Of a stretch of 28,113 bases of DNA, positions 1,148 to 19,905 are shown one piece after another (position 1 is the first letter of the stretch; each line of letters begins with the position of its first letter). The position numbers and the translations under genes are program-made. This DNA comes from a virus, in the IMG/VR virus record IMGVR_UViG_3300048672_000444, positions 1-28,113 of that record. One strand, given 5' to 3'. Under the pieces are notes generated by a model, which worked only from the letters and a program-made list of their open reading frames with translations, had not been told where the DNA came from and did no database searches.

Positions 1148-1491
1148 CTAAATACCTCCTGAGCTTCAACACTTATTTTAAAGAAACGCCCATCATTAGA
1201 TACCTCATAAGTCTTGCTGCAAACAACCTTAACTTGCTCTTCTGCGCTAGAAGTCTCTGATATCAAGAAACTATTCCAAGTACCTACAATACTTAGAAAG
1301 GTCTCAACTGTATTCTTCTCTGCTTTTGTCTGCAAGCCTTCCCAAGTTAGCTTATAGTTACGCTTAACCGAGTTAATTCCAAGCTTAATAACTTGTTCAT
1401 CTACGTTAGTAACCTCAGAAGCAGCACTTGTGAAACTAAGAGAAGGTTGTTTATCTACTAGAAGCTTGCAAGGTAATGGTAATGTTTGCAT
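1144..1491 (-). CDS. Second minor tail protein M-like (115 aa)
   Basis: The protein has the length of lambda gpM and resembles its second half: a KLTWEGLQ strand, a TVETFLSIVGTWNSFLI segment matching the ALESFLAEHGGWKAFLW region, and a C-terminal EEQVKVVCSK...ISVEAQEVF pattern matching QIKVTCAK...FSAEFEQVV. It lacks the FGDGYxQRA signature that the next gene keeps in its N-terminal domain. The two adjacent genes therefore look like diverged M paralogues, each retaining different conserved parts. The start codon shares a base with the stop of the upstream 74-residue gene (TAATG), so translation is probably coupled. The expected role is a structural part of the tail tip near gpL and gpJ. The family assignment is from remembered lambda sequence. 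Confidence 0.6.
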   Translation of the reverse strand: MQTLPLPCKLLVDKQPSLSFTSAASEVTNVDEQVIKLGINSVKRNYKLTWEGLQTKAEKNTVETFLSIVGTWNSFLISETSSAEEQVKVVCSKTYEVSNDGRFFKISVEAQEVFR

Positions 1492-1715
1492 TATACTATT
1501 CCTGTAATTATACCGTTAGTAACCGTTACCGTCTTACCATCTACTGTAGTAAAAGTACCTGAAGCTCCTGTAGTTATTATAGGTTCACAGACCTCTAAAG
1601 GATTAGGAAGGTCTTTCCAAGTCAAGTTATCTGCCCAATACTTATTACCTGCACTTACTGGAGTTCGAGTAGGTGTTTCTGTATAAACGGCACTTTGTTG
1701 TGCTGATATTGCCAT
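1491..1715 (-). CDS. Small tail-tip operon protein, unknown function
   Basis: This 74-residue protein lies between the gpJ-like gene (1 base away) and the M-like pair (overlapping by one base). I do not recognise it as a named lambda protein. The first 50 residues carry polar and aromatic residues (NKYWADNLTWKDLPNP). The last 22 form a short beta-rich module, FTTVDGKTVTVTNGIITGIV, of a kind I have seen at the ends of other small phage structural proteins. There is no signal peptide or membrane segment. Tight coupling with tail-tip genes suggests a minor structural or assembly protein of the tip or fibres; this is inference from position. Confidence 0.6.
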   Translation of the reverse strand: MAISAQQSAVYTETPTRTPVSAGNKYWADNLTWKDLPNPLEVCEPIITTGASGTFTTVDGKTVTVTNGIITGIV

Positions 1716-1716
1716 C

Positions 1717-4700: not shown

Positions 4701-5073
4701 TCTGAGTAAGAATAACAGCATCGTTAGTATTAGGTACAGCAATAATAACATGATGACCTATCTCATCTCCTTTAGTGATAGCTGCACTTGTAGCTGCAAG
4801 AGGTGCATAGACTTCTGCAAAACCAGATATAACTTCTTGGTCTGGTAAACCTCTCCTAGAAACAATATCAACAGAATATTCTGTAGCTGGCACTTGTTTA
4901 AGGTAAACGTCGCTTGCTTCAAAGCCTTCTATCTCTCCCTCTGAAAGCATGATGAGAAGTTTGGCAACTTGAGTAGAACTTCCAGTATCGGGATATTCAA
5001 CAGGAGTATGCTGCTTAGGAGTCTTCCCACTACCTGTTATATCGTTAAGATTAAAAAGAGTATCTTGTATCAT
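1717..5073 (-). CDS. J: Central tail fibre / host specificity protein J-like
   Basis: The protein has 1118 residues, close to lambda gpJ (1132). Residues 20-50 (KQHTPVEYPDTG...LLIMLSEGEIEG) match the gpJ N-terminus (GHTPREA...VIDAISEGPIEG). Residues 259-333, including PANYDTTTRDY, NPAWCLLHCLTDVRVGLG and a KYCD motif, match the gpJ core (PSNYNPQTRQY, NMAWCLWDMLTHPRYGMG, QYCD). Residues about 775-1010 contain two fibronectin-III-like stretches. gpJ forms the trimeric central fibre and its C-terminal end binds the host receptor. Between the KYCD motif and the conserved TEPRYTINAQF segment (464-474) there are about 125 residues that lambda lacks, and the DNA there (about 3690-4071) is visibly more AT-rich. 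The gene starts 1 base after the upstream stop, with no clear ribosome site, so coupling is likely. Confidence 0.93.
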   Translation of the reverse strand: MIQDTLFNLNDITGSGKTPKQHTPVEYPDTGSSTQVAKLLIMLSEGEIEGFEASDVYLKQVPATEYSVDIVSRRGLPDQEVISGFAEVYAPLAATSAAITKGDEIGHHVIIAVPNTNDAVILTQTINALYNIEANGDTISNTVSLDYYVSTDGSNWGLAVTNKTITAKYSSGYAFSVTVTRPVGVVGNVWYAKIVRLTDDSTSNKSQNATSFSQAIGIIYKNLAYDYKALLGITLKDAKQFGGSIPEILIKAKGIKVEVPANYDTTTRDYATAGVGTINGGWGGMFAAAKAWTDNPAWCLLHCLTDVRVGLGLDYDSIDIFAFYDLAKYCDGLVDISEVSVSINEVPDVIDASFTKTLVDYYYTDGTVTTIWYPAKTLNYARYLLTINNNINTAIGYNIFNSSDPAFESPTPSLVASINIQPGSYTFYYINVYESSFNITYHTTYFRIDAIQQNTIGTSTLSRTEPRYTINAQFITRENLNTFFMYFLTLMNANWTTNEFGQLSLMWDNENQQPSKQATNATIIDGVFNYSSTDLEQRFNHVNVTFSDPAAFGRTNTVSVPEVDQNGVGLTTVDRAAIASQSRYGFQQLDLVLVGCTSRAQAIRKARWALYNSCFLYNIIDFKVLFEGMIYKIGEIVSVCDNFNQEDLIAGIFVSHDEVGTDWEVKLDRELTLVVDTEYTLTYLSLADASQVSVTLTRTTGENSFSSFLIPISGSIEPLNSTFIVHPTEVKPKLYKVIKITKDDDVYNVVAIEHHDGVYDLGYGIINTLSKYDYIDGTVTINKPSGDYGNISYEVIQPIPDNSISVLPRYAIDAVSDQLVRSLEVTWTAPTNPITLDGKIENRIFNYSIGISRPKTPGTFETHEVPSTSYTIENTEFGTYKINIAVVDATNERSSALKEYIYEFTTSGISALLPPTNLVVKDTSVTTFTESDVKVTWNYNTANEALNDTLYTYLIDILNGEILLKSIYVPFDKDTKGGSAWIGLTVAQDLAIPAYRSITISVYSIDALGRKSASAATAVFSKIEPPAPSFTFTNTGSQFKVLTDNASCQGYGVTHFNVYASTEDGFTPSSATLVGTKKFDPLLPMESFSSIWFDFQEALPAGTTVFVLVEASDSYIEV

Positions 5074-5074
5074 A

Positions 5075-5644
5075 TTAAGCTATTTGGTCTGAGGTTACTA
5101 GGGCTGAAGAAAGAAGAACGCCGCTTGCGTAAGGTCTTCCGAAGATAAGAGAGCAGATACCACCTTGCTCTCTTAGCGTACCAGCCCCATTAAAGAGATT
5201 GCTTGTTTCATTTTGTGCTGCAACAGGGTCACTTACAGACAGATTTGGGGCTAGAAGTAAACTAACTCCTATAGATATACCAGCCCAAGCTAGCATTACT
5301 AATGCCTGTACCCACCAAAGCATACCAAAAGTAACTACAGTTAATACTGCTGCAACAGCTATACTTATCCATCTCCAAGCTTCTTGTTTGCCTTCAATAT
5401 CTTGAATAAATAATAAAGTATCAAATTGTTCTAAAGAAACTAAAGGTATTGCTTCTTTTGAAAGACTTAATTGAAACTTTGTAATACTATTAGATGCGAC
5501 AATACAAATAGGTTTCTTTACAAGCTTACTAAAGGTTTCTTCAGGCAAAAGTCTCTTAAGATGATTAAGAATACTTGCAACCGAAGTAGCTATTATATCA
5601 AACTCCTCTTTATCATCTAAAGAATGAATAACTATCACTTTCAT
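5075..5644 (-). CDS. Tail assembly protein I-like, second copy
   Basis: This 189-residue protein has the gpI architecture: a small alpha/beta N-terminal domain beginning MKVIVIHSLDDKEEF with a SILNHLKRL helix, a strongly hydrophobic pair of helices (about residues 93-132), and a conserved C-terminal segment with REQGG, IFGRPY and GVLLSSALVTSD. Lambda gpI ends similarly (GNPVPLCYGKRRIGGAIISAGIY). gpI is needed for tail-tip assembly but is thought not to stay in the mature lambda tail. It is a clear paralogue of the gene immediately upstream: both share SILNHLK, SNL(Y/F)NGA, REQGG and FGRPY. The start overlaps the upstream stop by four bases (ATGA). The function of the second copy is unknown. 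Confidence 0.85.
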   Translation of the reverse strand: MKVIVIHSLDDKEEFDIIATSVASILNHLKRLLPEETFSKLVKKPICIVASNSITKFQLSLSKEAIPLVSLEQFDTLLFIQDIEGKQEAWRWISIAVAAVLTVVTFGMLWWVQALVMLAWAGISIGVSLLLAPNLSVSDPVAAQNETSNLFNGAGTLREQGGICSLIFGRPYASGVLLSSALVTSDQIA

Positions 5645-6219
5645 AAAGATACATCCGAAGTAGTTAAACCAGAACTAAGTAAAACTCCACCACAATAAGG
5701 TCTTCCAAACACTAAAGGACAGACCCCTCCTTGTTCTCTTATTAAAGGTGCTCCATTATATAGGTTACTAATCCCTTTCTGAGAATTAGCAGGGTCGTTT
5801 GCAAACTCAGGAGTAGGGCTGAGAACTTGTATAAGAAACTGCAAGCCTATAGAGATGGCTATGTTGATAGCAGAAGCAACAAACATACCAAGTGTTGTTA
5901 AAGCACCTTCCGCCGTCACCAAAGCTGTTGAACCTATTGCAGCAACAATAGCACCTCCGCTCCCTTCAATATCCCGCAATATCAATAACCCATCAAATTT
6001 ATTAAACTCCTCTAATAACACCTCTTCTCTAAGAGCTATCGGAGTGAACCTTCCAGTAGAGTCAGTTAAAATAAACTTACAAGGTTTTTTCATAAGCTCT
6101 TTAACATACTTAATCCCTTTTAATTGCTTAAGATGATTAAGGATACTTCTTAACTTCGTCTGACTTGTCTCAAACTCAAACCAATCTTCATCCAACTTCG
6201 CAATAATACTAACCTTCAT
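5641..6219 (-). CDS. I: Tail assembly protein I-like, first copy
   Basis: A 192-residue gpI-family protein. An upstream in-frame ATG at 6273 would add 18 residues, but I chose the ATG at 6217-6219 because the protein then begins MKVSIIAKLDEDWFEFE, in register with its paralogue (MKVIVIHSLDDKEEFD), and the overlap with gpK shrinks from 65 to 11 bases. It contains the SILNHLKQL helix, two hydrophobic helices around residues 86-135 with Gly/Ala-rich faces, and the conserved C-terminus REQGGVCPLVFGRPYCGGVLLSSGL. It lies between the gpK-like gene and its own paralogue, as expected for the lambda order K-I-J. The likely role is assembly or chaperoning of the J-containing tail tip. Confidence 0.87.
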   Translation of the reverse strand: MKVSIIAKLDEDWFEFETSQTKLRSILNHLKQLKGIKYVKELMKKPCKFILTDSTGRFTPIALREEVLLEEFNKFDGLLILRDIEGSGGAIVAAIGSTALVTAEGALTTLGMFVASAINIAISIGLQFLIQVLSPTPEFANDPANSQKGISNLYNGAPLIREQGGVCPLVFGRPYCGGVLLSSGLTTSDVSL

Positions 6220-6943
6220 ATACAAGCCTACAATGTATTCTTCCGACAAAGTGTTCCATAGGTTCTTCAACACTCATATCCTTTTGGTGAATAACTATAC
6301 CATTATGATATATCCCTAGATGATTCCTGCGCCCACCATGAATACCGTCTAATAGAAGAAGGTCTCCGTTTTTAATCCCTTCAAGTTTTGCTTCTCTCTT
6401 AAACCCGTAGGATAAGATATGTTCTTCAAACACATCGTCACAATCTCTTATGTCTTTAAAATCTTTGCTTGCCTTATGTGGTGGTAGTTCCACTCCAAAC
6501 TCATTAAAGTAATAATCCTGCACAAGACTATAGCAATCATGTATAAACCAGATGAAAGGTCTACGGAGCAACTCTCCTCCAAGGGGCTTAGGGTATTGCA
6601 AAGCATCTAAGACATTCGTTCCATCTGTGCCAACTATAAGAAAAGGAACACTAGCTTGTTGTTGTGCCTGAATATCCTCACAAGAAGGAGTACGAAGGTC
6701 TAATCTGCTTGGTCTCTTTTGCTTAAGAGTATGACTATGTACTATTGCTTTAATACCTCCAAGATACTGTACAAGTTCTTTTGCAGGTATTCTAAAATGA
6801 TTAAGCCTATCTTCATGGGTATTTTCTATACAGATAAAACTATCTTCAAGAAGAACCCCACACATCTCTTCAGGATAGCAAGCTTTAGCAGCTTTAGCTA
6901 TCGCTTCTTTTTGTTCTTTGTTTAGTTTAATAGCTTGTTGCAT
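6209..6943 (-). CDS. K: Minor tail protein K-like: JAMM and NlpC/P60 two-domain peptidase
   Basis: This 244-residue protein has two peptidase domains, as in lambda gpK. Residues 1-125 are a JAB/MPN metallopeptidase domain with a complete JAMM signature: Glu25 or Glu26 in YPEEMCGVLL, His69 and His71 in HSH, seven residues, then Ser79 and Asp82. Residues 128-244 are an NlpC/P60 domain with the nucleophile Cys137 in HDCYSLVQDYYF, His208 in RRNHLGIYHNG, and a further His219 in IVIHQ. Both active sites appear intact. In this family the NlpC/P60 domain cleaves peptidoglycan peptides; which step the phage uses it for is not settled. The gene starts 3 bases after gpL and overlaps the gpI start by 11 bases. 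Confidence 0.92.
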   Translation of the reverse strand: MQQAIKLNKEQKEAIAKAAKACYPEEMCGVLLEDSFICIENTHEDRLNHFRIPAKELVQYLGGIKAIVHSHTLKQKRPSRLDLRTPSCEDIQAQQQASVPFLIVGTDGTNVLDALQYPKPLGGELLRRPFIWFIHDCYSLVQDYYFNEFGVELPPHKASKDFKDIRDCDDVFEEHILSYGFKREAKLEGIKNGDLLLLDGIHGGRRNHLGIYHNGIVIHQKDMSVEEPMEHFVGRIHCRLVYEG

Positions 6944-6946
6944 AGT

Positions 6947-7537
6947 CTATCCTATATATTTGTTTTTACCAACTCCAGGGTACTCCTCCCATTCCCCGGT
7001 TCTATTAATGTGAGGGTCACAAAGTATCTGATTCTTAGGCATAGAACCTCTTTCACTATCCATCGGATACCTAAGCTCATAAGCAATACCTTTAACATTA
7101 TGAGAAAGCTTTTTACCAATAGTAAAAGTTAGTTCTGGGGCAGTAACCCCTGCTGCTAAGTAACTCATATCATCAAAGGTTCTGATATACTTAACCTTAC
7201 AGCCAACTAAGTCACCATAAGTAAAACTTAGCTTTCCAAAGAACTTATCAACATTAGCTACTGCAAGTTGAGGTCTACTGAAAGAACCGTCTGAATTCTC
7301 CTCCAATCCGCTTATTGCAATAGGATAAGGTACAAAGACTCTTTCGGGAATGTCTCTATTAATGCCGTTAATCTTTTTTGTAGAAACTCCAAGTGTAAGA
7401 CCTTCGGGACTTCTGGTACTATTAGTAAGGTACAGATTAACAAGCCCTATAAGAGATAATTCTATTTCAAACAACTCTATATAAGCAGGTAGCTCTGCTT
7501 CTTTAACAAGAGTTTCTAAAGGTGTTATTGCCGGCAT
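6947..7537 (-). CDS. L: Minor tail protein L-like
   Basis: A 196-residue protein matching lambda gpL over its first two thirds: LFEIELSLIGLVNLYL corresponds to LWEIDLTEVGGERYFF, and FVPYPIAISGLEENSDGSFSRPQLAVAN (conserved PYPI, SGxExNxxGxxxRPxLxVxN) matches gpL closely. gpL links the distal tail proteins in the tip complex. The C-terminus differs. Lambda gpL (232 residues) ends in a cysteine cluster that holds an iron-sulphur cluster. This protein is about 35 residues shorter and has only two cysteines (in LVGCKV and ILCDP), so it cannot form that site alone. The start overlaps the upstream stop by one base (TAATG). Confidence 0.88.
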   Translation of the reverse strand: MPAITPLETLVKEAELPAYIELFEIELSLIGLVNLYLTNSTRSPEGLTLGVSTKKINGINRDIPERVFVPYPIAISGLEENSDGSFSRPQLAVANVDKFFGKLSFTYGDLVGCKVKYIRTFDDMSYLAAGVTAPELTFTIGKKLSHNVKGIAYELRYPMDSERGSMPKNQILCDPHINRTGEWEEYPGVGKNKYIG

Positions 7538-7815
7538 TAGTGCTTACTCATATAAGTTGGAATAGCATACCCTAATAAAGCTCCAATTATAGTAAAAATA
7601 AGCGTACCAATAGGGGCTAGTACCCTATTAATAAAGTCTTCTCTAGCTTTAGCTTCTATCTTATCTTCTAAGAGCTGGGTTAATAGGTTTGAAGAAGCTT
7701 CTTGTTCTTGTTGTAGGTTTTGCAGTTGTTCCTTTAGTAAGGCTACATCAAGAAGCAAAGCATCTTCCTTTTGTCGATTATAGACTTGCAAACTTTCATT
7801 GTGGCTGTCATTCAT
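7537..7815 (-). CDS. Small coiled-coil protein with C-terminal membrane segment
   Basis: A 92-residue protein, first in the leftward operon. Residues about 12-60 are rich in Leu, Gln, Glu and Lys with heptad-like spacing (ALLLDVALLKEQLQNLQQEQ), predicting a coiled coil. Residues about 66-88 form one hydrophobic helix (VLAPIGTLIFTIIGALLGYA) followed by a short basic end, so the C-terminus is probably in or across the membrane. This plan resembles XhlA-type phage proteins, which sit at the membrane and assist lysis; the resemblance is in layout only. A strong ribosome site (AGGAAG, 6 bases before the ATG) and a promoter about 20 bases upstream make this a confident gene. Its position with tail genes could also fit a role in tail-tip assembly or DNA entry. 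Confidence 0.7.
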   Translation of the reverse strand: MNDSHNESLQVYNRQKEDALLLDVALLKEQLQNLQQEQEASSNLLTQLLEDKIEAKAREDFINRVLAPIGTLIFTIIGALLGYAIPTYMSKH

Positions 7816-8521: not shown

Positions 8522-8830
8522 ATGAATGAACAACAAGTAGAACAAGAGATTAAAGTTAAAGGTTTAACAGCTCCTAGAATTACACCAGAATACTTGGACT
8601 CTATTATTGTTTCTAAGCAGTTTCATGTATTTGAAGGTACTTGCTTTACAACTTGTCTTTTGACATTAACTAATGGTTTTAACGTACTTGGAGAATCTGC
8701 TTGTGCAAGTCCTTCTAATTTTAATAAAGAGCTTGGAGAGAAGATAGCGTTTGATAATGCTAGAAATAAGCTATGGTTACTAGAAGGGTATCTGTTGAAA
8801 CAACGTCTTTTTGAAGATGCAAACAAATAA
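8522..8830 (+). CDS. N4 gp49 / Sf6 gp66 family protein
   Basis: A 102-residue protein matching the phage N4 gp49/Sf6 gene 66 family (PF13876, from memory): ITPEYLDSIIVSKQFHVFEG, the central CLLTLTNGFNVLGESACASP, and NARNKLWLLEGYLLKQRL are the family landmarks. The family is widespread in phages and has no established function. An in-frame GTG at 8513 would add three residues, but it lies within the ribosome site AAAGGTG (8509-8515), so the ATG at 8522 is the likely start. The 3' end overlaps the large terminase gene by 14 bases. It lies between the putative small terminase and the large terminase, so it is probably expressed late with packaging genes. Confidence 0.85.
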   Translation: MNEQQVEQEIKVKGLTAPRITPEYLDSIIVSKQFHVFEGTCFTTCLLTLTNGFNVLGESACASPSNFNKELGEKIAFDNARNKLWLLEGYLLKQRLFEDANK

Positions 8831-10769
8831 CTTCTCCGAAAAACAACTCATCTCAGACCTACTTACCTTCTTCACGCCTATTGAAGACATAAGTACCCGT
8901 ACTTGGTCTGAAAGAGAACTATTTTTAAGTGAAGCAAAGTCTCCTTCAAATCCTGGACGTTACAATGCTCTTGTTACCCCATACATGCTTCATGTTATGC
9001 AATCATGGGATAATCCTGAAGTAGATGTAATAGTTGCTAAGAAGTCTGCTCAAATAGGCTGGTCACAGACTATCCTTAACTGTATCTTTAAGAGTGCAGT
9101 ACATGATAACATGAGTGTCTTACTTGGCTTCCCCCGTGATGGTAGTAATGCTTCTTTCTTTAAAACACAGATACTTCCAATACTTCGCAGTAATCCAGTT
9201 TTACTAAAACAACTTAGTGAACATCTTAATAAGATAAGCTACAAGTTCATCCCTTTTCATAATAGCTTTATCATGTCAGGTAACATGGCAACTCCAGGAG
9301 ACCTTAAGAGTGTAGCAGTTACAAAGGTAGTAATTGAAGAACCGGATGATGCTAAGAAGGATGTAAGTGGACAAGGAGATGCTATTGACCTTCTTCGTCA
9401 ACGTATTAAAACAATCCCTTATGGTGCTAAAATAGTCTTCGGAGGCACTCCTACTAATGCAGAGTTCTCTCAGGTTGACCGTGCTTATAAAAAGAGCAAC
9501 CGTATGCACTTCCAAGTACCCTGTCATAAGTGTGGTGAGTTTCATAGCTTGTCTTTTGATAATCTTAAGTGTCTTGAGTGGGCTGCCAGACGTATTGATG
9601 AACAATATGGAGCTTATGACCCAGAGACCGCTTATTATGAATGTCCTCATTGCACTGCTGTTTGGACAGATGATGATAGAAGAAAGAATATAGTTGAGGC
9701 TCTTAACTTTCATAACTTAGGTTGGAAAGCCGAAGTACCTTCTCTTAAGAATATTGTCGGCTATGCTTTCAATGAGCTTCTCAGCCCCTTCAAGTCTTCT
9801 TCTCATGTTGAACTAGCAAAGTCCATGCTAGAAGCAGAAGTTGCCTACGAACAAGGGCATGAAGGTTTACTGAAGTCCTTTATAAACAACCGTAAGGGAG
9901 AAGCTTATGCTCCTAAAACACAAGGTCTTGGTTTAGAAGAACTTAAAGCACAACGTCTTAACTACACTGAAGGCATTATCCCCAATGAAGGTCTTATACT
10001 AACCTGTGGTATCGACGTACAACGTGGTAAGAACGGAAGGTTTGCAATAGTAGTTCGTGCTTGGGGGAGAAACGGCAACAGTTGGCTTGTTCAATGGACT
10101 GAGATAACAGCAAAGGATGTTAAGAATGGTGGAGATACTGAAGATGCTTCTGACCCTATCTGGGATAAGTTAGAAGACTATCTTGATACCCCCTTTCAAC
10201 ATGAGAGTGGTAAAAAGCTTTATATAGCTGCTGCTGCTATAGATGCTCGTGATGGTGCTATGACAGAAGTTGTTTATCAGTTCGTGCGCAAGCTTAACCT
10301 AAAATGGGAAACACAAGGCAGTGAAAGAACCCTTAGTGCTGTTATGGGTACTGGAGAGCTTAAATATACTACTCTTAATATCTATAATGAACCAGCAGGT
10401 ATGGATTTACTTACTTTTGGGCAACAAAGAAAGAGCCTTGCAGAAAGATATGGTATAGTTGTTTATCAGATAGGAGCTTTCAGAGCGCATGAAGAAGTGC
10501 TACGCAGGTTTAACATTCAGGGTACAAGAGATAGACATTTCCATTGCAAAAGCAATTATCCTGGTTATGAAGAAGGTATCTTGTCTTGTCGGAAGACCTT
10601 TGCAAGTGAAACAGTTAAAGCTATATTTAAACAGATTCCTGGTAAGAAGAAAGAAGCAATAGACTGTGAGAAGATGGCTTTGTGGTGTTCTTACTTTAGA
10701 GGAATTAGAAATATGACTACCCAACAATGGGAAGAAAGAGAAAGACTTATTTATGGGAACAAGGTGTAA
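8817..10769 (+). CDS. A: Terminase large subunit, gpA family
   Basis: A 650-residue packaging motor and nuclease of the lambda gpA type (lambda: 641). Residue numbers are from the ATG at 8817; an in-frame TTG at 8811 would add two residues. The ATPase domain has the family's variant Walker A (AKKSAQIGWSQT, about 74-85, like KSARVGYSK in lambda, without GKT) and a Walker B strand KVVIEEPDD (170-178). A zinc-binding pattern follows: Cys236 and Cys239, then Cys276 and Cys279. The nuclease domain starts at LTCGIDVQRGKNGRFAIVVR, with Asp400 as a metal ligand candidate. The C-terminus (KKKEAIDCEKMALWC) matches the KRRNEALDCFVYAL region of lambda. It cuts concatemeric DNA and drives it through the portal. 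Confidence 0.95.
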   Translation: MQTNNFSEKQLISDLLTFFTPIEDISTRTWSERELFLSEAKSPSNPGRYNALVTPYMLHVMQSWDNPEVDVIVAKKSAQIGWSQTILNCIFKSAVHDNMSVLLGFPRDGSNASFFKTQILPILRSNPVLLKQLSEHLNKISYKFIPFHNSFIMSGNMATPGDLKSVAVTKVVIEEPDDAKKDVSGQGDAIDLLRQRIKTIPYGAKIVFGGTPTNAEFSQVDRAYKKSNRMHFQVPCHKCGEFHSLSFDNLKCLEWAARRIDEQYGAYDPETAYYECPHCTAVWTDDDRRKNIVEALNFHNLGWKAEVPSLKNIVGYAFNELLSPFKSSSHVELAKSMLEAEVAYEQGHEGLLKSFINNRKGEAYAPKTQGLGLEELKAQRLNYTEGIIPNEGLILTCGIDVQRGKNGRFAIVVRAWGRNGNSWLVQWTEITAKDVKNGGDTEDASDPIWDKLEDYLDTPFQHESGKKLYIAAAAIDARDGAMTEVVYQFVRKLNLKWETQGSERTLSAVMGTGELKYTTLNIYNEPAGMDLLTFGQQRKSLAERYGIVVYQIGAFRAHEEVLRRFNIQGTRDRHFHCKSNYPGYEEGILSCRKTFASETVKAIFKQIPGKKKEAIDCEKMALWCSYFRGIRNMTTQQWEERERLIYGNKV

Positions 10770-11035: not shown

Positions 11036-12556
11036 ATGTTAACAACCGACCAAACAATATACCAAATCAATCCGTTTGACAAAAGAAGCTTTGAAGGTGC
11101 AAGCACTGACTATAAGAACGGACTTCGTGGGCTTGCTTCTGGAGAACAAGACCAACTTGTTGCAAGAGAGCTTCGTTACCTTCAACAACGCAGCCGTTAT
11201 GCCGTTAATAACAATGCTTATGCTCGTCAGGCTTTTAACACAAGCCTAACCAAACAAGGTTCTATTGAAACACAATGGAAGACACAAGGTAAGCTTTCTA
11301 CAAAAAATAAAGCTTCTAGTGAAGGCTTAATTACCCATAGCTGGATGACTGAAGTTTGGGGTGAGTTTACTGAAGCTCCAAACTACGATAATCTAGGTGA
11401 TTATAATGTCACTCAAAGCCTTAGCAATAGTTCTTTTTTCCTAGACGGAGTAAGTTTCCAACAACTTATGATTGTCCGTTCAAACAATAAGAATACAGTC
11501 CCTCTTAAGATAAAGCAGATACCCGCACAGCTTCACGCTATGTTTGCAGGGTTGCTTGAACCAGCAAAAGACGGAACTACAGTTATCAATGGTATTAAGT
11601 TCGACAGAACAGGAAGACCCCTTAGTTACTTCTTTCATAAGTCTTTTATTGAGAATCAAGTTACTAATCTTAGTGGTATCTTTGACCCAAGTATCTTTGT
11701 TGAAGTACCTGTAGAAGACATGGTACATTACTTTCATAGAGATTATGCGGGACAATGGCTAGGTATACCACAACTTACACCAGTCTTACTAGCTCTTTAT
11801 GAACTTGATGACTTCATCAGTGCAACTGTGCAGAAACAGAAAGTAGCACAAGCAATATCCCTTGTTATTAGTCAAACTCAACAAGCTTTATCTTCTACAG
11901 GTAGGGTATCCGTTGGTGATGTTGAAGGAGTTACTAATAGTGAAACAGGAGAATCTAAATATGTCTTTAAAACAGTAGGTACAAACGTTTTAGACCTTCC
12001 TTACGGTAGTCAAGCGCAGCTCTTGCAAAGTAGCGATGTTGGTAATAACTGGGAAACCCTTGTTCGTACTGAACTAAGAAAAGTAGCTGCTGTTAGCAAT
12101 ATCCTATATCATGAACTTACTGGGGATACAACAGAGTTATCTTTTAGTGCTATTAATGCCTTACTCTTACAAAGTCGTACAAGACTTGAGTATCTTGCAA
12201 TGACAGAAACCATACCCTTAAGGGAAAGAAAGATAGCAAATAGATTTAAAGAAATAGCCTTACTCTATGATACAGAAAAGACTGCTAAAAAACAAGCTGT
12301 TAATGCTGTTCCGGTGTTTAAGCTTCCTAAGTATAGAAGCCTTGACCCTTTAAAAGATACTCAAGCAGCAATACTTGCTTTGCAGAATAATATAGGCTTA
12401 TGGCAAGATGCCCTTACTGAAGCAGGTATTTCTATCGAAGAATGGTTAAGTGATAAAGACTTGCAGAAGTTACATGAGGTAACATTCCAAGAACAAGCAA
12501 CAAGTATGCAACAAGCAAGTAACTCACAGGCTAATAGCAATAGTACGGGAAATTAA
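11036..12556 (+). CDS. B: Portal protein, lambda gpB family
   Basis: A 506-residue portal (lambda gpB: 533). Typical features include an N-terminal region with RYLQQRSRYAVNNNAYARQA (early lambda-type portal helix), the VEDMVHYFHRDYAGQWLGIP strand-turn motif, the ELDDFISATVQKQKVAQAIS helix, and a C-terminal LSFSAINALLLQSRTRLEYL segment typical of the family. Twelve copies form the ring at one vertex, through which terminase drives DNA and to which W and the tail attach. The C-terminal 40 residues are low-complexity Gln/Ser/Asn. It lies 8 bases after W. Lambda-type portals can be trimmed by the head protease; no cleavage site can be read here. Confidence 0.92.
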   Translation: MLTTDQTIYQINPFDKRSFEGASTDYKNGLRGLASGEQDQLVARELRYLQQRSRYAVNNNAYARQAFNTSLTKQGSIETQWKTQGKLSTKNKASSEGLITHSWMTEVWGEFTEAPNYDNLGDYNVTQSLSNSSFFLDGVSFQQLMIVRSNNKNTVPLKIKQIPAQLHAMFAGLLEPAKDGTTVINGIKFDRTGRPLSYFFHKSFIENQVTNLSGIFDPSIFVEVPVEDMVHYFHRDYAGQWLGIPQLTPVLLALYELDDFISATVQKQKVAQAISLVISQTQQALSSTGRVSVGDVEGVTNSETGESKYVFKTVGTNVLDLPYGSQAQLLQSSDVGNNWETLVRTELRKVAAVSNILYHELTGDTTELSFSAINALLLQSRTRLEYLAMTETIPLRERKIANRFKEIALLYDTEKTAKKQAVNAVPVFKLPKYRSLDPLKDTQAAILALQNNIGLWQDALTEAGISIEEWLSDKDLQKLHEVTFQEQATSMQQASNSQANSNSTGN

Positions 12557-12735: not shown

Positions 12736-12764
12736 TTGACAAACTTCCAAAAAACCTGTATAAA
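12736..12764 (+). promoter_or_regulatory. Second rightward sigma70 promoter, before the capsid genes
   Basis: TTGACA (12736-12741), 17 bases, TATAAA (12759-12764): the same hexamers and spacing as the promoter at 7837. The two also share CTTGACA at the upstream end and CCTGTATAAAGA at the downstream end, while most of the spacer differs. Transcription should start near 12771, leaving a leader of about 90 bases before the 52-residue gene. This would raise expression of the capsid genes above that of packaging genes. Confidence 0.8.
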
Positions 12765-12860: not shown

Positions 12861-13019
12861 ATGGATGACTTAACAGTAGAGAAACTTAGCAAGCTTTCAA
12901 AAGAAGAACAGCTTGCTTTGCTTAAGCTTTCAGAAAACAAAGAAGCCTTGCTAACCTCTTTAAAAGACAAGACAAGTTACTCCGCACCTCTTAGAGTTCA
13001 AGCGGAGTCCTCTAAATGA
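12861..13019 (+). CDS. Small helical protein, unknown function (52 aa)
   Basis: A 52-residue frame with a ribosome site (ACGGAGAA) about 8 bases before its ATG. It is highly helical and charged: MDDLTVEKLSKLSKEEQLAL, then a Leu-rich LLKLSENKEALLTSLKDK segment, and a basic end. Its TGA overlaps the start of the protease-scaffold gene (ATGA), so the two are probably translated together. I do not recognise the family. Being first in the capsid transcript, it could be a small scaffold-like or connector protein, or simply provide translational coupling; neither is shown. Confidence 0.6.
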   Translation: MDDLTVEKLSKLSKEEQLALLKLSENKEALLTSLKDKTSYSAPLRVQAESSK

Positions 13020-13978
13020 AAGGGGAAGTCTTAAAGACGCTTGTTTGTAATGCTGCCTGGTTTATAGATGACAAAGGTAATGTTATGACAGATACTTGTT
13101 ATGACAATACTATCTTAGCTAAAGGCAATTCAATCCCTCATATTAAAGACCATGAATGGGAGATAGACGCTCAAGTAGGAGATGTACAAGCAGTTTACAC
13201 TAAGTCTCTTCCACTCCGTACTCTAGGTTTAGATAAAGAAGGTGAAACAACCTGCCTTATTATGGATTCTTTAGTTAAAGAAGTCTATAACCCAACAGTC
13301 TTTGCACTTTACTCTGATAATAAGGTAACACAACACTCTATTGGCTTACGCTACAAGCAAATCAAGCTTGCAATAGACTCTCAAGATGAAGTTAATGCGG
13401 CTGAATATGCTAATTGGCTTGAATACTATCCAAAGATTCTTAATAAAGAAGTAGCAGATGCTAGAGGATTCTTCCTTCTAGTAACAGAGCTTGAACTAAT
13501 AGAGAACTCCTGCGTACTCTTTGGAGCTAACCTCTTAACACCGACTTTAAACAGTAATAACTCTCTTGCCTCAAACAAGAGTTCACAACAACCCAACACA
13601 AGGGGAATAACAATGTCTGAAATGACAATGGAAAGTATATTAGCAAAGAATGTAGAGTTAAGCTCTGCTCTTGCCAATGCTAATGCTTCTCTTGCATCTG
13701 CTGAACAACGAGGCAAGCAAGAAGAACAACAACGTATCTTAGGTATCTTAAAAGCAGGCACTACCTTTGGCATAGGTGCTGTCAGCATCGAAAAAGTTAT
13801 CTTAGCAGGTTTTACAAGTGAACAAGCTACTATGAACTTCGAGATGGCTAAAGAAGCTGCACAAGCTATGCAAACTCCTAATACAGCAGGTACTCAACCG
13901 CTTGGTGCTGTTGCAAGTGCTTCTGCACAAGCTACCGGTTCTCAGGGTAAAATTCAATGGTTACAAGGAGTAATGTAA
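13016..13978 (+). CDS. Head maturation protease fused to scaffold (HK97/S78-like)
   Basis: A 320-residue protein with a protease domain (about 1-175), a linker (176-198), and a scaffold region (200-320). The protease follows the HK97 prohead protease (S78) pattern: His46 in PHIKDHEWEI, Ser108 in THE QHSIGL stretch, and the closing motif VTELELIENSCVLFGAN, equivalent to LxEvSlVtxPAN. His46 and Ser108 are the candidate catalytic residues. The C-terminal part is Ala/Gln/Glu-rich and helical, ending in GKIQWLQGVM, like capsid scaffolds. It would hold the capsid shell during assembly and then be degraded. Lambda's gpC instead uses a ClpP/S49-type fold, so a different protease is paired here with a lambda-type shell. 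The start overlaps the previous stop (ATGA). Confidence 0.8.
   Translation: MKGEVLKTLVCNAAWFIDDKGNVMTDTCYDNTILAKGNSIPHIKDHEWEIDAQVGDVQAVYTKSLPLRTLGLDKEGETTCLIMDSLVKEVYNPTVFALYSDNKVTQHSIGLRYKQIKLAIDSQDEVNAAEYANWLEYYPKILNKEVADARGFFLLVTELELIENSCVLFGANLLTPTLNSNNSLASNKSSQQPNTRGITMSEMTMESILAKNVELSSALANANASLASAEQRGKQEEQQRILGILKAGTTFGIGAVSIEKVILAGFTSEQATMNFEMAKEAAQAMQTPNTAGTQPLGAVASASAQATGSQGKIQWLQGVM
13613..13978 (+). CDS. Scaffold protein from an internal start (Nu3-like)
   Basis: The ATG at 13613, codon 200 of the protease-scaffold gene, is in frame and preceded by a strong ribosome site, AAGGGGAA, at about 6 bases. Translation from it gives a 121-residue scaffold starting MSEMTMESILAKNVELSSAL and ending at the common stop. 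The helical, Ala/Gln-rich composition fits a scaffold. Lambda does the same with C and Nu3. The full-length protein would be a minor species and the short form the main scaffold; this ratio is inference. Confidence 0.7.
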   Translation: MSEMTMESILAKNVELSSALANANASLASAEQRGKQEEQQRILGILKAGTTFGIGAVSIEKVILAGFTSEQATMNFEMAKEAAQAMQTPNTAGTQPLGAVASASAQATGSQGKIQWLQGVM

Positions 13979-13979
13979 T

Positions 13980-14933
13980 ATGGCTGAATATAACGGTCAA
14001 TTAGACCCAAGATATTATGACCAGAACCAACAAGGTGGTGGTCGGGTTGCTGATAGAACACCCTCTTTGCGTAAGTTCTATGGTATAGACTGTCATGAGA
14101 CTACTCAACGATGGATAGCTTCTGGTGTTGTTGCAAAAGCAGGTACTATCATGCAATGTGATAACGCAGGTTACTTAGTACCTCATAGAGGTTTTAAAGA
14201 AAAGGCTGTTGTTACTTTCTTAGATACTTTAACATCTGGTAAAGTAGTAACTATTGCCGGTTTAACCTTTACAGCAGGTTCTTCAGGTTGTACAGTAGCT
14301 AATTTAGTTAAAGCTTGGTCTTCTATTCCAGCAAGTACTGGATATGTTGCTGCGGCGTCTGCGGCTCTTGCTGCTGGCATCACTGCTAGAATGGGTACTT
14401 TCACAGCAGGTACTTTAACAAATTACTTGACAGACGAAATCACTGTAGGAGATATCTCTCCTAATGCAGTAGCTTTTGTCTACATAGGAACAGACGTTGA
14501 CCCTGCTAACCTAACAGTAATAACTGACAACGTAGCAAGCTTAACAACAGTTGATATTATCTTAGCACTTCAAAACTTCCAAAAGATTGAAGGTGTACTT
14601 GCTGTTGATGTAGATAATACTTCTGCGGCGGCTTATGCTCCTATTTTTGAGGAAGGTACTTTTTTTGCAGACGATGATGGTAGAAGTTTCTTACGTTGGA
14701 TTACTGCTACTTCAGGGTCTGTCCCAGACAGCGAGAAAGTTTACAACCCTATTACTAATACGTATGTACCTTGTACAGCTTATAATACAGGCTGCTATGG
14801 TACTACCGAAGCTGCTAAAAGAGCTAAACAACGATTTGTTACTGGTTCTGAAATTGACATCTACTTGTTCCAAACAGGGGCAAACGTAGGTATGGAAGAT
14901 TTAACTAACGCTCTAGTAGGGAGTCCGACATGA
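13980..14933 (+). CDS. Head decoration protein (gpD-like) with inserted domain
   Basis: A 317-residue protein between the scaffold and major capsid genes, where lambda encodes gpD (110 residues). The N-terminal half has a gpD-like stretch (IASGVVAKAGTIMQCDNAGY), and the C-terminal part (about 205-317: EGVLAVDVDNTSAAAYAPIF, then FVTGSEIDIYLFQ) looks like the closing part of a decoration domain. In between, about residues 76-190 form an Ala/Thr/Gly-rich beta domain with TIAGLTFTAG and MGTFTAGTLTNYL. That domain recurs in the tail-tube protein. Decoration trimers bind the expanded shell and stabilise it. The insert would presumably sit on the outer surface. The stop overlaps the major capsid start (ATGA). 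Confidence 0.7.
   Translation: MAEYNGQLDPRYYDQNQQGGGRVADRTPSLRKFYGIDCHETTQRWIASGVVAKAGTIMQCDNAGYLVPHRGFKEKAVVTFLDTLTSGKVVTIAGLTFTAGSSGCTVANLVKAWSSIPASTGYVAAASAALAAGITARMGTFTAGTLTNYLTDEITVGDISPNAVAFVYIGTDVDPANLTVITDNVASLTTVDIILALQNFQKIEGVLAVDVDNTSAAAYAPIFEEGTFFADDDGRSFLRWITATSGSVPDSEKVYNPITNTYVPCTAYNTGCYGTTEAAKRAKQRFVTGSEIDIYLFQTGANVGMEDLTNALVGSPT
14205..14549 (+). repeat. Shared beta domain, copy in the decoration protein
   Basis: Residues about 76-190 of the decoration protein. Its segments TIAGLTFTAG...LVKAW and GTFTAGTLTNYL align with LKLGGLTFTA...LAAW and GAFTSGTLANYK in the tail tube. The DNA GGTTTAACCTTTACAGCA (14259-14276) matches 18799-18816 at 17 of 18 bases, which suggests fairly recent shared ancestry. 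Confidence 0.65.
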
Positions 14934-16114
14934 GTGTACTAATTAGTGATGTATATGGTGTTAATGCGGTCTTAGACGGTATTCAGAAAGCCAGAACAAT
15001 GAAGAGACCTTTGTTCTTCCAGAGTTTTACTGGTAATAGAGGCTTATCTGACAGTGATAACATCCGTATGGATATTGAGTTCGCAGTTGGTAACCCAATG
15101 GGTCAACCAGTTAATCCTGACGTAGAAGCACCTGAACTAGATACACCCCAGTACGGTCATAGATTTTATGAATGGACTTATGTTAAGGAACTTGTATCTT
15201 CTCGTATGGATGCAGACTTCCGCAGACGTATTGGGGAAGTTATTGGTGCTGGCGGAGACCCTGTAGTAGCTTTGCAACAAGACTTCTTATCAAGACAAGT
15301 CCTTTCACTTAATGCAATGGACAACTATGAAGAGTTGTTTGCAGGTGATTTGTTACTATATGGTAATCATTTAAGTAAGTCTGAGTTTAGTAATACTGTT
15401 TACTTCGATTTCTTCCGACCAAAGGTTACTACTGACGCAGAGTATCTTGCAGGTGATTGGAGTTTGGCTAACTTGACAGGAACAGATGTTATTAAGAATG
15501 GTTTAACTATTCCTAAGTTTAATGGTAACGGTGGCATTGGTAAACGTGCTTGGAACGCTACTGGTGGTACTATTGCAGTTGACCCTGTTCAAGACATGAA
15601 AACATGGTGTCACTGGGCTTCTCGTGACGAAAACATCGAAGCCTGTCTTATGAGCTTTGATGCTTATGAAGCTTACTATACTATGAAGAATAGTGATAAG
15701 TATAAAGCCTTAAGAGACTTAACTATCAATGTCTCTCCTAATGATAGATTATTAGAAAATCTATCAGCCCCAATGGAAGAGTATGAAGGTGTTACCTTGC
15801 AAACAGTTGACTATATTAATGGTCATTGGATTCCAATCTATACGTATGACGGCAAGTACACTTTGCGTAATGTAGCTAATGTTGGTAAGCAAGCTTTCAT
15901 GCCTAATGGTTATGTTATCTTGATTCCTTCAAAGGATAACCAAGTTAAACGATATGGACGCATCCAACACTTCAAAGCTGGCTGGGCTGCTATGCCTCTT
16001 TGGATTAACCAAGCAATGAATGAGTGGACTGGTGCTTACAAGCAAGAATTCCATAGAGCTTTATTTATGGGCTTGAAACAACCTAATAGGGTTAAAACTA
16101 TCAAGGTTATGTAA
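14930..16114 (+). CDS. E: Major capsid protein, lambda gpE family
   Basis: A 394-residue shell protein (lambda gpE: 341) with the HK97 fold expected of this family. It overlaps the decoration gene by 4 bases. The N-terminal region (MKRPLFFQSFTGNRGLSDSD) has the conserved aromatic/Gly pattern, and residues 45-75 (NIRMDIEFAVGNPMGQPVNP, then APELDTPQYGH) resemble the start of gpE-type proteins. The C-terminal region, YGRIQHFKAGWAAMPLWINQ, has the hydrophobic strand layout of the axial domain. It follows portal, protease-scaffold and decoration, as in lambda. Hundreds of copies form the icosahedral head. There is no obvious N-terminal cleavage region, consistent with a separate scaffold. Confidence 0.85.
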   Translation: MSVLISDVYGVNAVLDGIQKARTMKRPLFFQSFTGNRGLSDSDNIRMDIEFAVGNPMGQPVNPDVEAPELDTPQYGHRFYEWTYVKELVSSRMDADFRRRIGEVIGAGGDPVVALQQDFLSRQVLSLNAMDNYEELFAGDLLLYGNHLSKSEFSNTVYFDFFRPKVTTDAEYLAGDWSLANLTGTDVIKNGLTIPKFNGNGGIGKRAWNATGGTIAVDPVQDMKTWCHWASRDENIEACLMSFDAYEAYYTMKNSDKYKALRDLTINVSPNDRLLENLSAPMEEYEGVTLQTVDYINGHWIPIYTYDGKYTLRNVANVGKQAFMPNGYVILIPSKDNQVKRYGRIQHFKAGWAAMPLWINQAMNEWTGAYKQEFHRALFMGLKQPNRVKTIKVM

Positions 16115-17564: not shown

Positions 17565-17783
17565 ATGGCACGATACACTGTTGATGAAGCTGGTAACTTC
17601 ATCCCAAAAACTACGAGTAAGCCTCAAGAGGCTTTACTTAAAGAACAAATGGAACTAGCTGGTTTAAAAATACCAAAGGAAACCACTTGTGGTAAAGTTA
17701 ATCTAGCTAATCTAAAAGAAACAGCAACCAAAGCAACCAAAGCAACCTTAGCAATCAAAGAAGAAGGAGTAAGCAATGAGTAA
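17565..17783 (+). CDS. Small protein before the tail tube, unknown function
   Basis: A 72-residue protein with a strong ribosome site (ACAGGAG, 17553-17559). The C-terminal third is low-complexity and charged: KETATKATKATLAIKEEGVS. It overlaps the tail-tube gene by 8 bases. No family is recognised. The N-terminal RYTVDEAGNFIPKTTSKPQE could be an extended segment that binds a partner. By position it may be a tail assembly factor or a minor tube component; there is no direct evidence for either. Confidence 0.6.
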   Translation: MARYTVDEAGNFIPKTTSKPQEALLKEQMELAGLKIPKETTCGKVNLANLKETATKATKATLAIKEEGVSNE

Positions 17784-19905
17784 TACAAAGTTTCACAAAA
17801 GAGCTACGGTCATCTATGCTTGTAAACAGAAAACAAGAGGTAGTAGGGTTACTGTTAGTACGGCTGATACTGTAGGCACTATTTCCGTTTCAGGGACAAC
17901 TGTTACTGGCACAGGTACAAGTTTTATAACACAAGCAACAGAAGGGGCTTATCTTTATGATGCTAATGCTTATGAAGTTGGTAGAATATTAAGTATTAAT
18001 TCTGATACCTCTATTACTCTGTATGAAAGCATCCTTGCAACGTCTATTCTTGCAACTGCTACTAATACTAAAAGAGCTGGGACAAGTGCAGGAACTGGGG
18101 TTAATACCGGAGCTTCTGCTTTTGATGGTTCTAGCTATAGCTTCGGCTTAGGTAATGCTAATGCTATCCGTGTTAAAGAAGGTATGAAGTTTACTTTTGA
18201 AACAGAAACAGGCGCAGCTACTTATACTGGAGATGAGTTAGATAGATACGAACAAACTTGGGTTAAAGACGAGTTTGTAACAGTTGACTTTGAAACCTTT
18301 GTACCTATTTTAGGCGCTGTCTTTAGTAATGTTATTGCAGATAGTGACTTACCTTTACCAGACTTATACGAAGCTTGTGGATTGGGTGTTGTTTCTACAA
18401 ATACAAATGTAGCTTACACTAATACTGTTGCTTCTAATGAGTTCCTTGAAGTAGAGTTTAGACTAGCAAGCCCAGACTTAACAGTAACTGCCCCATACTC
18501 TTCTACAGAAAAGGTTTATGTTGGCTATGACTTAGTAGGTACTATTGATGCGGATATAGCAGATATAGGTGAGCGGGGTACTTTCAAGTTCATGCTTAAA
18601 GGTAATACTGCTGGGGTTGTTATGCTTCCTAAACGTGTACCTGACTATAAGCTACAGTCTTTAGAAATTGCAGAACCTTTTAACTCAAGTCCTGTTAATT
18701 CAAATATCCGTCTTGTTGCTTTAGACTTATTATTGCAGCAAGCTAGTTTGACATTTGACGCTGCAACGGCAAGCATAGGGGAGACTCTTAAACTAGGAGG
18801 CTTAACCTTTACAGCAAACGATAATATTACAAGAGGGCAAGCTTTAGCCGCTTGGTCTGATATAGCTAGTGGGAGTGCTTACGCAGATATTAACCCTTTA
18901 ATAACTTCTGTTGCTACCTTTGGTGCTGCTGTTACGACTGCTTCTAATAACTTAACCTTTTCATCAGATATGGAGGCTACACTTCCGGTAGGTTCTATGT
19001 TGTTTAGAAACTTTGACAACGCTTATATAGGTACTATTGCAACTATAGCAAGTGGAGGTTTAACCGCTACTTTAACGTCTAATGCTGCTGTAGCTTCTAA
19101 CAATGGTACTGTCTTTAAGTACATTACTAAGACTGCTTTAGTCTATGGAACAGGTAACTTAACAGTAACTTTAGGAGGTTCTTCTGTTACTTTTGTAAGC
19201 GCACAGACTTTAACGGCTGGTACTGCTTTATTTGATAATGCAGGTACTTTTGTAGGTGTATTAGCTACTGTAGCTGCTAACGGTCTATCCGGTATTTTAA
19301 AGTATCCTGCTGAAGTAGCAGTTGCGGGTGCTGCTTTTAACTACACAACTAACTTCTTATCTGCCTTTAACGGAGCATTTACTTCTGGTACTTTAGCTAA
19401 CTATAAGACAGCAGTTATGGATGCTACCCATGTCTTAATAACTGCTGTTAAGATTAAAGCCAACTTAGAAAGTTTAAACTTAACCGGCACAGCAACACAA
19501 ACAACGGTAACTCCTTTAGCTTCTGTTGATACCTATGCTTACCGTACTAAACCAACAGTAAGTAACCTTTGTATTGGTAAACTTAATGCTCCTAATATAA
19601 CTGGTTTAGACCTTCAACGGTTCAAGTTGTCTTGTGAAACAGGTTTTCATCAAGGTGCTGTTACAACAGATATTACAGTCAGTGTTAAAGAAGACATTGA
19701 AGGTATCTTCTTTGAACCTAATAGTCATGTTGGGGTAGAAGCTGCACTATGGCTAGAATGGGGACAACCTTCTAAGAACTCCTTAGTTCAATGGAAGTTC
19801 AGTATTGTTACTATATCAAAGGTAAGCCCTTCTGAGATTGGTAACTTCCGAGCTTATGATGTAACATTAAGAAATATTGGAAAATTCACTATGACACTTT
19901 CATAG
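17776..19905 (+). CDS. V: Tail tube protein with large nested insertions
   Basis: A 709-residue protein where lambda encodes the 246-residue tube protein gpV. Tube-like sequence surrounds the inserts: residues about 110-320 (YSFGLGNANAIRVKEGMKFT, DLVGTIDADIADIGERGTFK) and 575-709 (ending FRAYDVTLRNIGKFTMTLS). Between them, about 324-572 is an insert. Its two ends (324-375 and 528-572) match the inserted domain of the decoration protein, and the middle (about 385-523) holds two copies of another beta repeat; a third copy is near the N-terminus (33-96). The inserts, probably on the tube's outer surface, would give a tail studded with beta domains. It ends just before a strong terminator. Confidence 0.75.
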   Translation: MSNTKFHKRATVIYACKQKTRGSRVTVSTADTVGTISVSGTTVTGTGTSFITQATEGAYLYDANAYEVGRILSINSDTSITLYESILATSILATATNTKRAGTSAGTGVNTGASAFDGSSYSFGLGNANAIRVKEGMKFTFETETGAATYTGDELDRYEQTWVKDEFVTVDFETFVPILGAVFSNVIADSDLPLPDLYEACGLGVVSTNTNVAYTNTVASNEFLEVEFRLASPDLTVTAPYSSTEKVYVGYDLVGTIDADIADIGERGTFKFMLKGNTAGVVMLPKRVPDYKLQSLEIAEPFNSSPVNSNIRLVALDLLLQQASLTFDAATASIGETLKLGGLTFTANDNITRGQALAAWSDIASGSAYADINPLITSVATFGAAVTTASNNLTFSSDMEATLPVGSMLFRNFDNAYIGTIATIASGGLTATLTSNAAVASNNGTVFKYITKTALVYGTGNLTVTLGGSSVTFVSAQTLTAGTALFDNAGTFVGVLATVAANGLSGILKYPAEVAVAGAAFNYTTNFLSAFNGAFTSGTLANYKTAVMDATHVLITAVKIKANLESLNLTGTATQTTVTPLASVDTYAYRTKPTVSNLCIGKLNAPNITGLDLQRFKLSCETGFHQGAVTTDITVSVKEDIEGIFFEPNSHVGVEAALWLEWGQPSKNSLVQWKFSIVTISKVSPSEIGNFRAYDVTLRNIGKFTMTLS
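17872..18063 (+). repeat. Beta repeat in the tail tube, copy 1
   Basis: Residues about 33-96. Core: tsF...(A)GaYLYDANAYEVGRILSI, then a DTSITL strand. It shares with copies 2 and 3 a strand with bulky hydrophobics (L-F/Y), a short polar turn, then (I/V)G-x-(I/L)-x-(S/T)-(I/V). Confidence 0.5.
18928..19125 (+). repeat. Beta repeat in the tail tube, copy 2
   Basis: Residues about 385-450: NNLTFSSD, then LPVGSMLFRNFDNAYIGTIA, TIASGGLTATLTSNAAVAS and GTVFKY. It aligns with copy 3 (LTAGTALFDNAGTFVGVLAT, VAANGLSGILKYPAEVAVAG, AAFNY). Confidence 0.6.
19129..19344 (+). repeat. Beta repeat in the tail tube, copy 3
   Basis: Residues about 452-523, directly after copy 2. GNLTVTLGGSSVTFVSAQ leads into the L-x-AG-x-xLF...VGVLATVAANGLSG core shared with the other copies. 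Confidence 0.6.

Follow-up and report, generated by a model that had tools for sequence, protein, structure and literature searches.

The window, by which we mean the whole stretch of DNA analyzed here, covers positions 1 to 28,113 of the virus record IMGVR_UViG_3300048672_000444. Its head genes lie on the plus strand and include a single open reading frame (ORF) in which a head protease is followed by a scaffold-like tail. The features that matter for what follows are these:

8811 to 10769, plus strand: terminase large subunit, gpA type (PF05876, PF20454)
11036 to 12556, plus strand: portal protein, lambda family (PF05136)
12736 to 12764, plus strand: candidate promoter TTGACA-17-TATAAA, read by eye, which would serve the protease-scaffold, decoration, and capsid genes
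12861 to 13019, plus strand: ORF of 52 aa, overlapping the protease start by ATGA
13016 to 13978, plus strand: fused head protease-scaffold ORF, 320 aa, with GGAG before its start (pairing score -3.7)
13016 to 13561, plus strand: protease domain, residues 1 to 182, T4 gp21/herpesvirus-type fold in a predicted model, H46 and S108 invariant
13562 to 13612, plus strand: linker, residues 183 to 199, pLDDT under 50
13600 to 13605, plus strand: candidate ribosome binding site AAGGGG, 7 nt upstream of the ATG at 13613
13613 to 13978, plus strand: 121-aa ORF nested in frame and opening at codon 200, corresponding to the helical scaffold-like tail
13980 to 14933, plus strand: possible head decoration protein, 317 aa, in the gpD position, with a weak hhalign match to gpD types
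14930 to 16114, plus strand: major capsid protein, lambda gpE type, 394 aa

The order of these genes (portal, protease-scaffold, D, E) is that of lambda, the window adding small ORFs between portal and protease. The identification of the capsid as lambda gpE type, which a preliminary description of this DNA had proposed, is supported by profile comparison: hhalign against an alignment of 11 gpE-type proteins gives 97.5% over 296 columns, and the phage family phrog_29, which the window capsid matches at E 1e-11, is matched by lambda gpE as well. Against Pfam at E 1, the same capsid draws no match. The possible decoration protein reaches 16.9% over 28 columns against gpD types. Single-sequence searches of viral contigs returned one weak match for the capsid and none for the portal or for the protease protein as a whole. 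The candidate promoter between the portal and protease genes is a near-consensus sigma-70 sequence (11 of 12 bases, 17-nt spacer) that could be the source of a separate head-gene transcript; the promoter scan demands a final T and hence omits it.

The nature of the protease domain is the first element on which the interpretation depends. An AlphaFold2 model of the 320-aa protein, built from an alignment of 42 sequences, has block means of 90 to 98 pLDDT over residues 1 to 180, falls under 50 at residues 183 to 202, and places tail helices at residues 205 to 249, 258 to 263, and 268 to 285. The first six matches of the model in a Foldseek search of the PDB are herpesvirus proteases (E 0.015 to 0.5). 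After realignment with VIA, the best match is T4 gp21 (Z 10.0, rmsd 2.4, 124 residues), followed by varicella-zoster protease (Z 9.1, rmsd 3.2, 118 residues) and by many other herpesvirus proteases, nearly all with Z between 6.0 and 8.4 and one at 4.8; these herpesvirus scores lie mostly under 8, a range that VIA describes as common. The best row outside the T4 gp21/herpesvirus group has a Z of 4.8. The structure of HK97 gp4 does not occur in the fold-search listing, and its absence there carries no weight. Among the BFVD matches, the top one is an uncharacterized phage protein, and the named ones include several prohead proteases and COG3740 (1e-10 to 1e-7). The residues that do not vary across the 42 aligned rows include H46, H107, S108, E158, and E163, and we take H46 and S108 to be catalytic by analogy with the herpesvirus and T4 sites. 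The model therefore supports the assignment of the domain to the herpesvirus/T4 gp21-type fold.

This bears on two proposals of the preliminary description. First, it held that the protease has a different fold from that of lambda, whose gpC is an S49 protease. At E 1, a Pfam search does not bring up S49, which together with the predicted fold argues that the domain is not S49-like. Second, it called the protease S78-like. By fold, with T4 gp21 and the herpesvirus proteases as nearest structures, the term is apt; by profile it is not, since Pfam S78 (PF04586) is not reached at E 1 either. A relative, in L001, comes close to PF04586, reaching 15.6 bits where the cut-off is 21. HK97 gp4 scores 9.4 bits against the family model built around the window's protease, over 34 residues only, and lambda gpC, Mu I, and P2 gpO do not match that model.

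The relatives of the protease domain occur mostly in another setting than a gpE-type module. A tblastn search with the domain found 66 phage records, 46 of them from Flavobacterium, 17 from Polaribacter, two from Olleya, and one unassigned; Olleya phage Harreka_1 is matched at 2e-24. In the three records that were opened (Olleya Harreka_1, Polaribacter Danklef_1, and Flavobacterium tooticki), the protease gene lies between the portal and capsid genes. Their proteases are 25 to 35% identical to the window's over residues about 7 to 170, but they have about 60 more N-terminal residues and no scaffold tail, and the capsids of Danklef and tooticki are noted as HK97-type rather than gpE-type. A profile scan of viral contigs yielded at least 80 loci, which reduced to 58 distinct complete ORFs and to 42 after removal of those more than 90% identical; 41 of the 42 entered alignment A2, L059 being dropped for an X. 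A scan of genomes added 16 matches, whose titles name Bacteroidota (14), Chlorobiota (one), and Alphaproteobacteria (one). The last, L263, is a contig of an Alphaproteobacteria-labeled MAG whose protease branches with that of the Olleya phage, and it is probably misbinned.

The genes that adjoin these proteases are mostly those of HK97-type capsids. Of the 100 family loci among the matches listed, 82 have a complete next ORF, and 70 of these ORFs are distinct; 61 of the 70 match the HK97-type capsid family PF05065 and four match PF25209. When such capsids were scanned singly, matches spanning most of the profile began at about residue 140 to 170, and the room before this point fits an N-terminal scaffold domain as in HK97. 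In these HK97-type phages of Bacteroidota, the capsid protein itself probably supplies the scaffold, as its N-terminal portion. Scanning of the same 100 listed loci, on one strand and with some loci short, gave no match at E 1e-3 to the lambda-type portal, gpE, or S49 models. Among the listed matches the protease relatives, counted over 94 complete ORFs in the 100 loci, have C-terminal extensions with a median of 32.5 aa; the longest, at 87 aa, is that of L263 and contains a masked run. Measured in this way, the window's extension comes to 138 aa. In the tree, the window falls within a starred clade of 13 rows (99/93), with L007, L008, and L022, among the matches listed. Its branch is long, at 1.8 changes per column, which makes its exact position unsure. 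The sole named host in this clade is Muricauda (L265), the other rows besides the window being viral contigs, and for L007 and L008, which are its nearest rows, the capsids that adjoin the proteases have no Pfam match at 0.001.

The small ORFs between portal and protease are also a feature of the Danklef_1 and tooticki phages. The 52-aa ORF was considered as a split-off version of the N-terminal extension of the relatives and was rejected in this role: against a profile of the N-termini of the 42 relatives it scores 1.4 bits and ranks 13th, behind unrelated frames of the window, and when joined to the first 15 protease residues it still ranks only 11th.

The window also differs from the phages of its protease relatives in how its genes begin. 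Shine-Dalgarno cores precede 19 of its 27 starts but only 2 of 32 starts in the three Bacteroidota phages (0/9, 1/9, and 1/14 singly), which are thus nearly free of such sites; comparison phages gave 17/17 (Sulfurimonas phage SNW-1), 17/23 (Marinobacter phage PS3), and 7/9 (lambda). A cruder count found 3 of 24 in L007 and L008 together against 12 of 23 in the window, and it runs too low, as it credits lambda with 1 of 5 where the main count gives 7 of 9. From this contrast, which is one of sequence signals, we conclude that the phage of the window probably infects another kind of host than do the phages of its protease relatives.

The converse question is which proteases accompany lambda-type modules. 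Relatives of the window's terminase were found at at least 80 loci, many of them short, of which 66 have a clear portal match and 43 a complete ORF next to it. Among these 43 ORFs following the portal in the listed matches, 14 match Pfam S78, 13 S49, and 10 Clp protease, with overlaps possible, so S78-type proteases do follow lambda-type portals. A gpE-type capsid match occurs in 9 of the 80 listed loci, and all 9 also have an S49 match; no S78-type protease paired with gpE was seen among the listed terminase relatives, and the window's own protease family has no match in these 80 loci, many of which are short. In two named phages with lambda-type portals, the next genes are annotated as protease-capsid fusions. 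Separately, five of the lambda-type terminase/portal relatives (L180, L181, L185, L187, and L190) have a MAR-type capsid match, and the three of these that were scanned singly (L180, L181, and L190) have a ClpP-family protease after the portal.

The preliminary description had read the nested scaffold start beside such a protease as implying either convergence or domain replacement upstream of a kept scaffold. Of these two, domain replacement is favored by the sequence comparisons because the window's protease nests, in the tree, in a family that mostly adjoins HK97-type capsids. True convergence would require that a lineage of herpes-fold proteases had always resided in lambda-type modules and had evolved a nested scaffold independently. 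In its favor, herpesvirus proteases of this very fold also have a C-terminal scaffold; both the HK97-type surroundings of the family and the departure of the window's phage from it in Shine-Dalgarno use speak against it, and we consider it very unlikely. A nested scaffold need not in any case signify convergence on lambda, given that the strategy is also known in Mu and KS10 and that herpesvirus proteases are described as having a C-terminal scaffold.

The second element of the interpretation is the internal start. The preliminary description placed AAGGGG just before an in-frame ATG at codon 200 that would open a 121-residue ORF, and this is exactly what lies at 13600 to 13605 and 13613, in frame with the 320-aa ORF. 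By the modeled boundaries, this ATG stands at the end of the linker, just ahead of the first tail helix. Site strength was measured by a spacing-limited pairing score in kcal/mol and compared with that of 27 gene starts assigned by hand from the ORF list. AAGGGG with ATG 13613 scores -5.3 kcal/mol and the gene's own start is weaker (-3.7); 7 of the 27 assigned starts are at or above the strength of ATG 13613. By the same score, sites at least as good occur at 4 of 124 in-frame internal ATGs, ATG 13613 included, and at 10 of 355 out-of-frame ATGs, giving 13 of 478 other non-start ATGs in total; by a looser duplex score, it ranks fifth among the 124. The surrounding RNA is also comparatively open, with a folding energy from -35 to +35 of -8.9 kcal/mol, where gene starts average -7.8 and internal ATGs -13.0; 11% of the 124 in-frame internal ATGs reach this openness. 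The signal is real, start-like, and above the typical background; it is suggestive and falls short of proving initiation.

It may be instead that the fusion alone is made, as annotated for P2 gpO, and that a single polypeptide is cut after assembly, the AAGGGG and ATG having come together by chance. There is room for such a coincidence: the gene has nine in-frame internal ATGs, and arithmetic from 13/478 gives about one gene in five with an equally good site somewhere among that many. This phage moreover makes ordinary use of the codons AGG (42 of 315 Arg) and GGA (151 of 589 Gly), and P2 gpO is annotated without a nested gene. What makes the fusion-only reading unlikely in our estimate is where the site falls and what it resembles. 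It sits at the linker, where there are three ATGs (codons 200, 203, and 205) and the chance of such a site at one of them is about 8%; it is more open than most internal ATGs and beats the gene's own start; and nested starts are annotated in both Mu and lambda. On the strength of the start-like signal, we consider that translation probably does begin at ATG 13613, with roughly two chances in three as a fitting description of our confidence.

The third element is the origin of the tail. It is a 12.5-kDa segment, rich in Ala and Gln, with a pI of 5.1; modeled alone, it is predicted with low confidence (mean pLDDT 55.7) to form one long helix followed by short helices. The tail has no match at E 10 in the phage collection, and no relative sharing it was found when the whole protein was compared with viral contigs and the tail with the phage collection. 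These results leave room for a tail that is new or came from elsewhere, rather than being a kept lambda-type scaffold, with the nested start as a local invention; this reading is compatible with the others. Two profile tests also lean that way. An HMM of 73 distinct S49 C-termini gives the tail 6.2 bits, a score that one of 200 shuffles exceeds (8.0) and the others do not reach, this HMM being so insensitive that it reaches the phiAP1 scaffold only at 0.0028; and in an iterated scaffold-core HMM, 39 of 2000 shuffles equal or beat the score of the tail. On the other side, hhalign of the tail against lambda-type scaffolds gives 26.1%, the maximum among 100 shuffles being 11.2%, and a comparable tail occurs in none of the 94 complete protease relatives among the matches listed. 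The outline of the tail resembles that of a lambda-type scaffold core, in which RI.GIL is followed about 28 residues on by S/T..E/Q.A. The pattern R[ILVC]..I then [ST]..[EQ].A is present in the tail and in 74 of 90 scaffold-core ORFs as against 17 of 3398 other ORFs, in 9 of 20 nonredundant core fragments, and in 32 of 20,000 shuffles; because the pattern was devised after the tail had been seen, we do not count it as a test. The kept scaffold of the preliminary description thus has weak sequence support. Retention of the tail from a lambda-type scaffold is nevertheless plausible and somewhat better than an even bet, and another origin, while possible, seems to us the poorer guess.

Taken together, these elements suggest an account to which we assign a probability of about 0.6, in which one frame gives two products, with a protease domain acquired by recombination and a lambda-type scaffold behind it. 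The full-length protease-scaffold fusion would be made from the gene's own start and the tail alone from ATG 13613, the latter probably in larger amount. Within a gpE-type shell, the free scaffold would assemble together with a smaller number of fusion molecules, and the protease would then cut away the scaffold and itself ahead of DNA packaging. Recombination would have brought in the protease domain from a family whose other members work with HK97-type capsids, for the most part in Bacteroidota phages where hosts are named; the domain would now occupy the place usual for S49 in gpE lambda-type modules, ahead of a scaffold suited to the gpE capsid. The most specific form of this account is a natural domain swap within one gene, which joined the herpes-fold protease of a Bacteroidota HK97-type phage to a lambda-type scaffold in a phage of a Shine-Dalgarno-using host and kept the internal start; we hold this form more tentatively, at a little under even odds.

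Among the nearest known systems is lambda itself, where the Nu3 scaffold ORF is likewise nested in frame in the 3' part of the protease gene and is followed by the decoration and gpE genes; the annotated start of nu3, judged by eye, has no clear Shine-Dalgarno sequence at the usual spacing, whereas the window has AAGGGG. Mu I/Z and KS10 gp28/gp29 have an internal in-frame scaffold start in the protease gene with a purine-rich site upstream, and the KS10 authors call a nested scaffold usual in many other phages. Mu differs from the window in its protease, which belongs to PF10123 and lies outside the window's family model, and in its major head protein, T. P2 gpO (284 aa, PF05929) resembles the window in holding scaffold and serine peptidase in a single polypeptide, and differs in lying outside that model. 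In herpesviruses, viruses of eukaryotes, the scaffold gene UL26.5 is nested, and the nested product comes from its own transcript. The herpesvirus protease-scaffold precursor (UL26) shares with the window a similar protease fold, as predicted here, and a scaffold fused at the C terminus of the protease, a feature reported in PMC8537868. For tailed phages, PMC5694885 cites Liu and Mushegian 2004 as the source of the finding that herpesvirus-like and Clp-like protease genes displace one another.

The strategy and the displacement of the protease are thus both already known, the former from lambda, Mu, and KS10 and the latter from PMC5694885. We found no description of a protease-scaffold fusion of this kind in the literature searched, which took in few subscription papers. 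What the window adds is to bring the two together, with a domain border that can be seen and with evidence on the source of the protease; rather than a new kind of system, it is an instructive mosaic of separately known tricks. A single gene may here display where the exchange took place, since the join falls in a linker that is predicted to be disordered and that also holds the candidate start of the scaffold. This suggests that swaps may work because a capsid-matched scaffold can be made independently of the protease fused to it, and it makes the window a case for how a capsid accepts a foreign protease. If the account is true, head proteases would be exchangeable across folds, capsid types, and host phyla while the scaffold stays matched to the capsid.

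Two observations concern other genes of the window. The genes at 14 to 7815 are read from the minus strand, in contrast to the head genes from 7914 onward, and include a J-like tail protein (1717 to 5073) whose closest likeness is to the J-like proteins of Rhizobium and enterobacterial phages. Finally, the product of 13980 to 14933 (residues 74 to 122) and that of 17776 to 19905 (residues 321 to 369), a protein in the tail-tube position, have in common a GLTFTA-type segment (BLASTP pair E 0.004), which is perhaps a surface domain inserted in both.
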